Shown one piece after another: positions 22,255 through 22,868 of a stretch of DNA of 64,000 nt (positions are counted from its first letter, which is position 1; every line of letters begins with the position of its first letter). The stretch comes from Dehalococcoidia bacterium (lineage in GTDB: Bacteria > Chloroflexota > Dehalococcoidia > GIF9 > AB-539-J10). The stretch lies in contig JAUWYX010000006.1 in assembly GCA_030615625.1 (NCBI GenBank), forward strand, positions 1-64,000, in the 5' to 3' direction. Under the pieces are notes generated by a model. The model was not told where the DNA came from. It saw nothing but the letters and a program-made list of their open reading frames with translations, and searched no databases. The translations under genes were made by a program, and so were the position numbers.

Positions 22255-22274
22255 ATGCCAAAGCGGCATAACAG

Positions 22275-22313
22275 ATAATAAGAAGAGCGAGCTCCAAATT
22301 TTGAAGCTCGCTC
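22275..22313 (-). terminator. Intrinsic terminator of the 22.3-22.6 kb transcript
   Basis: A 9-bp perfect stem, GAGCGAGCT (22285-22293) with AGCTCGCTC (22305-22313), extends into the loop by A-T pairs. On the minus strand it is followed by TTCTTATTAT. The plus-strand side has no T-run, so it stops minus-strand transcription. Confidence 0.8.
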
Positions 22314-22580
22314 CTGAATATCGCTATTCAGTTTTAGATCACCCCTACTCTTCCACTTCAGCTTCCGGCTGAACTGCCGTTGCCCCTTCTTGGGAGCCTA
22401 GCCTTACAGACGAAGAGCTCGGGGCTTCCATGTGCTCTCAAGCAACGCACCTTAACTATCGAAGTCAATTCCTACTTACGTTGCCGGAGAGCTCCGATAG
22501 GGAAACATCCATCGGCATAACCAAGCCTCTCTTCGTGTCATGCCCACCTCCTTGTTAGGCATTAACCATTCTTGCCTAGC
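22281..22580 (-). ncRNA. Candidate structured RNA of about 300 nt (unassigned)
   Basis: A minus-strand unit bounded by a sigma70-like promoter (22587-22616) and an intrinsic terminator (22275-22313). Helices seen by eye: TAGGCA/TGCCTA (22556-22578); CCGAT/ATCGG (22494-22515); a 12-bp two-part helix 22434-22447 with 22479-22492 carrying a 2x2 internal loop; GCCCC/GGGGC (22382-22425); CGGC/GCCG (22366-22379). I do not see the signature sequences of tmRNA, RNase P, 6S or SRP RNA. It also contains two small ORFs. One is 21 codons (22476-22541) behind a full AAGGAGGTG ribosome site; the other is 28 codons (22345-22431). It may therefore be an RNA, a small-protein mRNA, or both. Confidence 0.6.
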
Positions 22581-22586
22581 AGATAT

Positions 22587-22616
22587 ATTTTAGCACAATG
22601 CAGGGGACTATGTCAA
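22587..22616 (-). promoter_or_regulatory. Promoter of the unassigned 22.3-22.6 kb transcript
   Basis: Minus strand: TTGACA (22611-22616) and TAAAAT (22587-22592) with an 18-bp spacer. The predicted transcription start is near 22580, just ahead of the first hairpin. Confidence 0.7.
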
Positions 22617-22655
22617 AAATTTATCCCCGCTCAGTACCCTAGTGTCACTTCTTTT

Positions 22656-22743
22656 TGTCATTGCGAGGAGCCCCGATGAATCGGGGCGACGAAGCAATCT
22701 CTGTGGGTGTGGAGGCGGGGATGAACCCCGCCTAAGCAATGAC
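22656..22743. repeat. Dispersed palindromic repeat, compound copy
   Basis: Begins TGTCATTGCGAGGAGCCCCG and ends AAGCAATGAC, with two inner hairpins (CCCCGATGAATCGGGG and GGCGGGGATGAACCCCGCC). Outer arms GTCATTGC and GCAATGAC pair. It lies in the gap between the ncRNA candidate and the asparagine-synthase-like gene. Confidence 0.75.
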
Positions 22744-22868
22744 AAATGACAAAGCTCCAATGTCAAGTCAAGTTCAAAAGCCAAATGACAAAAAGCAATG
22801 GTTTTGGCATTTAAGTATTTGGATCTTAGCCTATGGGATTGCCACGCCTTCGGCTCGCAATGACACGG
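22744..22868. repeat. AT-rich arm plus second palindromic repeat fragment
   Basis: Bases 22744-22830 carry CAAATGACAAA and TTTGGCATTTAAGTATTTGG-type arms related to the AT-rich elements at 15663 and 25850. Bases 22835-22865 are a half copy (GATTGCCACGCC...GGCTCGCAATGAC) of the palindromic family. Together with the preceding copy, the gap 22617-22938 is almost entirely repeat sequence. Confidence 0.6.

Follow-up and report, generated by a model that had tools for sequence, protein, structure and literature searches.

A stand-alone transcription unit was located on the minus strand at positions 22273-22616 of the window, that is, the whole 64,000-nucleotide stretch of Dehalococcoidia DNA that was analysed. 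Its features are the following, listed in the direction of transcription:

22611-22616, minus strand: -35 hexamer TTGACA, from the promoter scan
22587-22597, minus strand: extended -10 element TGTGC-TAAAAT, with a TG before the -10 and the hexamer TAAAAT at 22592-22587
22554-22579, minus strand: P1, the 5' hairpin, where the transcript is expected to begin (84% of cells paired; 5 of 7 pairs changed on both sides)
22547-22553, minus strand: Shine-Dalgarno sequence AAGGAGG, also visible in alignments of relatives
22476-22541, minus strand: 21-codon ORF encoding MTRREAWLCRWMFPYRSSPAT and a stop, supported by its recurrence among copies and by a codon test
22514-22544, minus strand: P2, a hairpin with the start codon (GGCAUGAC / GUUAUGCC; 98.7% of cells paired, changes mainly one-sided G-U)
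22434-22492, minus strand: P3, a long hairpin with the 3' end of the ORF as its 5' strand (13 pairs, 10 changed on both sides across the class)
22345-22431, minus strand: second ORF of 28 codons, present in the window copy
22341-22425, minus strand: P4 domain (93.8% of cells paired; 9 of 13 pairs changed on both sides)
22382-22398, minus strand: P5, a short hairpin within P4 (96.6% of cells paired in the family)
22357-22373, minus strand: P6, the hairpin UUCAGCCGGAAGCUGAA within P4 (3 of 6 pairs changed on both sides)
22273-22315, minus strand: intrinsic terminator stem and T-rich tail, found by scan (7 of 9 pairs changed on both sides in the family alignment)

The promoter (TTGACA, an 18-nt spacer and TAAAAT) matched 11 of the 12 consensus positions and ranked best of six within 4 kb in a promoter scan for which 3.9 promoter-like sites at ≥9/12 are expected by chance; transcription is inferred to start at about 22580. 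The terminator (22315-22283) was scored as 15 pairs with a 3-nt loop, followed by CTTATTATCT. By themselves the promoter and terminator scans of the window give numbers near chance, and both elements are credible because comparative data from relatives support them: -35/-10 pairs of ≥9/12 were present in 63 of 69 copies of the RNA, and a simple scan picked up terminators in 59 of the 69. The promoter and the terminator stem with U-tract that the original prediction had claimed therefore held, and the comparative evidence shows, in the absence of transcript data, that promoter and terminator both belong to the RNA itself. Directly upstream of the promoter (22650-22745) the sequence is of the type CATTGCGAGGAGC...GAAGCAATC; similar words also flank other copies, which looks like a dispersed repeat.

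The Shine-Dalgarno sequence lies 5 nt ahead of the ATG at 22541, an arrangement that had been predicted together with the 21-codon ORF and that was upheld, the ORF evolving in a codon-like manner. An ORF of 19-28 aa was recovered in 69 of 72 copies (L082, L124, L127 and L128 are divergent and doubtful), with a family peptide of 20-26 amino acids, its motif M-x-[KR]-x-Q-A-x-L-C-x-W-x-F-P and the core L-C-x-W-x-F-P. The invariant F-P is partly there by construction, since ORF picking demanded an in-frame TTYCC in addition to a Shine-Dalgarno-like motif. Residues outside these selection criteria were nevertheless conserved in the 59 distinct segments (L in 50, C in 42 and W in 54), the leucine being encoded by TTA, TTG, CTA, CTG and CTC, and the proline by all four of its codons. 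A codon test based on BLOSUM62 gave +1.13 per changed codon in the ORF frame, against -0.71 and -0.50 in the other frames and -0.51 ± 0.54 in column shuffles, of which 0/200 reached the ORF-frame score; the sequence pairs are not independent, so the shuffles serve as a guide and give no exact probability. The peptide of the window's genus contains W-L-C-x-W, the first Trp being Leu, Met or Val elsewhere, and in Dehalococcoides-like genomes the ORF begins with TTG, one of the predicted peptides being MEKLQALLCTWFFPCIGSSLVGVRGS. None of the peptides tried matched Pfam or NCBIfam above the cut-offs. Comparative evidence alone, with neither ribosome nor peptide data behind it, shows the first ORF to be evolving like a protein-coding sequence and to encode a conserved micropeptide. 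The second, 28-codon ORF, also part of the original prediction, exists in the window copy and was rejected as a gene, its start codon and frame being lost in close relatives.

The claim of strong structure was likewise borne out. The fold of 22580-22276 reached -123.9 kcal/mol, compared with -93.9 ± 5.5 for shuffles (z = -5.43), and 0 of 100 shuffles equalled it. Across 53 copies, 90.6% of the P3 and P4 cells were paired and 19 of 26 pairs had changes on both sides; cells changed on both sides numbered 202, whereas shuffles gave 61 ± 10 and slid versions never more than 53. The family alignment, covering P1-P6 and the terminator, gave 74 such cells versus 22 ± 4, with P1, P5, P6 and the terminator as added support. 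Because consensus folding and the alignment were used to draw the structure, the percentage of paired cells is biased upward, and the number of double changes is the more reliable figure. Evidence for P2 is weaker than for the other helices, as its register differs outside the family and it adds little in the family alignment. P4 is closed by GCCCC-GA-GCUCUUC / GAAGAGU-A-GGGGU, with a nearly invariant GAG/UA internal loop. These comparisons show that the RNA folds into a conserved structure comprising P1, P3 and P4. The GAG/UA loop was also considered as a sarcin-ricin/loop-E motif, an idea that was dropped because a covarying helix occupies the bases that loop-E needs.

When the interval was searched by blastn, 22 of 60 related genomes gave matches. 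R1, a sequence profile built from 23 copies, matched 37 of the 52 family genomes (14/16 of the high-quality ones), 52 of 84 of the order and 54 of 393 of the class, while R2, a structural model covering 219 positions and derived from 53 copies, matched 69 of the 393 sampled class genomes, nine of them weakly (E >1e-7) and to be held loosely. All 21 matching genomes in a phylum sample of 400 belong to the class, and the named contigs with copies are MAGs labelled Dehalococcoidia or Chloroflexi. One copy is typical and a few genomes have two; L126 is a tandem pair (G325:C15:127-355 and 507-734). No copy was detected in two near-complete genomes of the window's genus (G019, 99% complete, and G015), and most sampled class genomes are without a detectable copy, indicating that the RNA is not essential everywhere. 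The family may extend to cultured Dehalococcoides and Dehalogenimonas, a possibility that rests on the inferred identity of two single-contig genomes, which we take to be Dehalococcoides mccartyi (G176) and Dehalogenimonas (D. lykanthroporepellens; G200). The G176 copy (L111) lies at about 1395.0-1395.5 kb and would give a transcript of some 330 nt. A match to the P4 pattern in a viral contig (L108) was discarded as chance, as it sits within an ordinary 291-aa ORF, and those in contigs of Oscillospiraceae, Bacteroidetes and Burkholderiaceae are likely chance as well.

Searches of Rfam at gathering and relaxed thresholds yielded only chance microRNA- or snoRNA-like matches to the RNA. The original prediction had seen no signature of tmRNA, RNase P, 6S or SRP RNA, and this held: covariance models gave no match at the locus for 6S RNA (RF00013), which was undetected in the whole genome too, nor for tmRNA (RF00023), RNase P RNA (RF00010) or bacterial small SRP RNA (RF00169), found instead at G000:C17:5343-5681, on C5 and C11, and at C11:226868-226967, respectively. 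It had also been stated that a strong Rfam match, or absence of the interval from close relatives, would refute the prediction; no Rfam match was found and relatives do carry the interval, so neither came true. In the window's genome two RNase P RNA matches exceeded the cut-off (G000:C5:3267-3633 and C11:631-1014; 306 and 295 bits), where a single one is usual; the second may be a true duplication or reflect a mixed assembly. No account of the locus was found in the open-access literature searched on Dehalococcoides small RNAs. The RNA family, with its conserved micropeptide, is real, conserved and apparently undescribed, its expression and function being inferred.

The neighbourhood of the copies is variable. 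A manual count of the nearest downstream genes gave about 27 on the same strand and 41 on the opposite strand, of varied kinds, and no consistent same-strand downstream gene was seen among the copies examined, as an attenuator or uORF leader would require. Since the downstream genes vary in strand and kind, no gene is consistently controlled in cis and the RNA is not a leader. In the window the downstream gene is convergent and encodes 75 aa; we take it to be DUF2905-like. Elsewhere, with names taken from sequence reading, the convergent downstream gene of L111, L112 and L123 is one that we take to be SAM hydroxide adenosyltransferase-like; what we take to be secG comes next after it in L111 and L123, and lies directly downstream of the RNA in L118 and L121. 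A gene that we take to be rlmN-like lies back to back upstream in family f2. The tail-to-tail placement of the RNA with secG and/or the SAM hydroxide adenosyltransferase-like gene recurs in several families and is perhaps the ancestral site.

The 5' strand of P3 is the end of the ORF, so P3 cannot stay intact while a ribosome reaches the stop codon; the leader bearing the Shine-Dalgarno sequence can pair with the same strand, excluding P3. A partner-swap test was applied to 36 representative copies with composition effects removed, and P3 and P4, as positive controls, gave z of about -10. The duplex between leader and ORF end was favoured over swapped partners (z = -2.7; 5/2000 permutations, and 2/2000 within groups), whereas the control pairings of the leader with the 3' strand of P3 or the 5' strand of P4 gave no signal in these 36 copies. 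The signal is weak, about one seventh that of P3 in the same test, and several combinations were tried. Pairing of P3-3' with P4-5', a ribosome-driven switch, was rejected for lack of excess over swaps (400/2000), as was that of P3-5' with P4-3', borderline overall (30/2000) and fading within groups (161/2000). An earlier rank test of leader pairing was mixed (0.42 overall and 0.20 outside the order, chance being 0.5). In computed folds of the L070, L112, L116, L118 and L121 transcripts cut at the stop codon, the leader folds onto the ORF end; copies from the window's own genus form only a poor leader duplex, in competition with P1, and the full-length fold frees the ribosome site only modestly.

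These data suggest a mechanism in which the leader, with its Shine-Dalgarno sequence, would pair with the 3' end of the ORF in place of P3 and close translation. The RNA is inferred to alternate between this closed state (leader:ORF-end helix) and an open one in which P3 is formed and the ribosome site is freer. Peptide synthesis would be gated as the 3' P3/P4 domain folds, possibly together with a protein or ligand that it binds, and the RNA would itself be reshaped by ribosomes. We prefer a bound factor to antisense pairing, since the RNA positions of highest conservation are in helices. This specific gating model is a lead and not proof; it is weak in the window's genus, and on balance we hold it to be clearly more doubtful than credible.

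The original prediction had left open a structured RNA, a small-protein gene or a dual-function RNA, and the covariation and codon evidence together support the dual reading. We lean, by a modest margin, towards a stand-alone gene for a dual-function RNA, that is, the mRNA of a micropeptide whose ORF overlaps a conserved structure; both parts expected of such an RNA are present, namely a small ORF under peptide-level selection and a conserved RNA element apart from the coding region. There are no transcript, ribosome or peptide data, and the cellular action of either product is inferred. It remains possible that the peptide is the sole product of a micropeptide gene, with the structure serving mRNA stability or translation control, as the codon evidence and the retention of the Shine-Dalgarno sequence and short ORF would allow. 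Against this, P4 and its GAG/UA loop, about 50-135 nt past the stop codon, are conserved like the ORF and covary class-wide, and a stabiliser of mRNA need not be as specific as P4. The converse, a structured noncoding RNA with an ORF that is incidental or merely loads ribosomes, is favoured by the strong covariation and by the start codon being held in the P2 hairpin, and is unlikely given amino-acid conservation that uses four proline and five leucine codons, with negative scores in the other frames.

Two further alternatives find little support. The ORF, the overlapping hairpin and the terminator are the usual parts of a ribosome-mediated attenuator, and W-L-C-x-W in the window's genus would suit a leader peptide with Trp/Cys codons acting on a neighbouring gene. 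However, the gene downstream varies in kind and is convergently oriented both in the window and in the majority of the other copies, the first Trp is replaced elsewhere, and the unit ends at its terminator, all of which makes this reading very improbable. A divergent housekeeping RNA (6S, tmRNA, RNase P or SRP) would agree with one copy in most carriers, the wide spread and the undetected 6S of the window's genome, but can be almost discounted: the tmRNA, RNase P and SRP RNAs sit elsewhere, Rfam matches are no better than chance, and an ORF with tandem hairpins is unlike 6S. The missing 6S means little, because 6S was detected in just 4 of 393 class genomes, which is also too rare for complementarity between the RNA and 6S across the class to be judged.

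Under the preferred dual-function reading, a bolder version is conceivable, in which these are a class of sensor or trans-acting RNAs whose 3' domain controls its own 5'-encoded micropeptide through long-range helix exchange; if true, this would be a self-contained sensor with a peptide as output and no neighbouring gene under its control. It is uncommon for a structured RNA found across a bacterial class to lack an Rfam family, and rarer still for its structure to enclose an ORF that is selected at the protein level. The RNA would add a regulator to bacteria used in chlorinated-solvent clean-up, about whose regulatory RNAs little is known, and would offer a test case of folding-coupled translation outside leaders; its apparent presence in Dehalococcoides and Dehalogenimonas means that existing RNA-seq and proteome data could bear on it.

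Several known systems resemble this one in part. The uORF/sORF motifs of the GC-IGR pipeline (PMC8632094, PMC11109978) also combine a structured RNA with a conserved short ORF, but those uORFs precede a consistent main gene and the present RNA does not. That pipeline covers a Dehalococcoides genome and includes the rdhA motif from Dehalococcoides, so the locus may already be among its candidates; nothing like it is named in the relevant main-text sections of the two papers, and the unnamed candidates of their supplements were outside the search. The Dehalococcoides peptide of L109, MEKLQALLCTWFFPCTGSSLVEARGS, had sub-threshold matches to Tap, the leader peptide of the IncFII plasmid RepA (PF08048 and TIGR03475; E 0.013 and 0.0035, below curated cut-offs), and the other three peptides tried had none. 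Translation of Tap is also coupled to RNA folding, but no replication gene follows the present ORF. Functionally nearest, by analogy and with any sequence relation compared through Rfam only, are dual-function RNAs such as VcdRP of Vibrio cholerae, which encodes the 29-aa VcdP and whose RNA part works via base pairing (PMC8672173). VcdRP and SgrS/SgrT share with the present unit a stand-alone small transcript, an encoded small protein and a conserved RNA part; unlike in VcdRP, the conserved RNA part here consists of covarying structure overlapping with the ORF.
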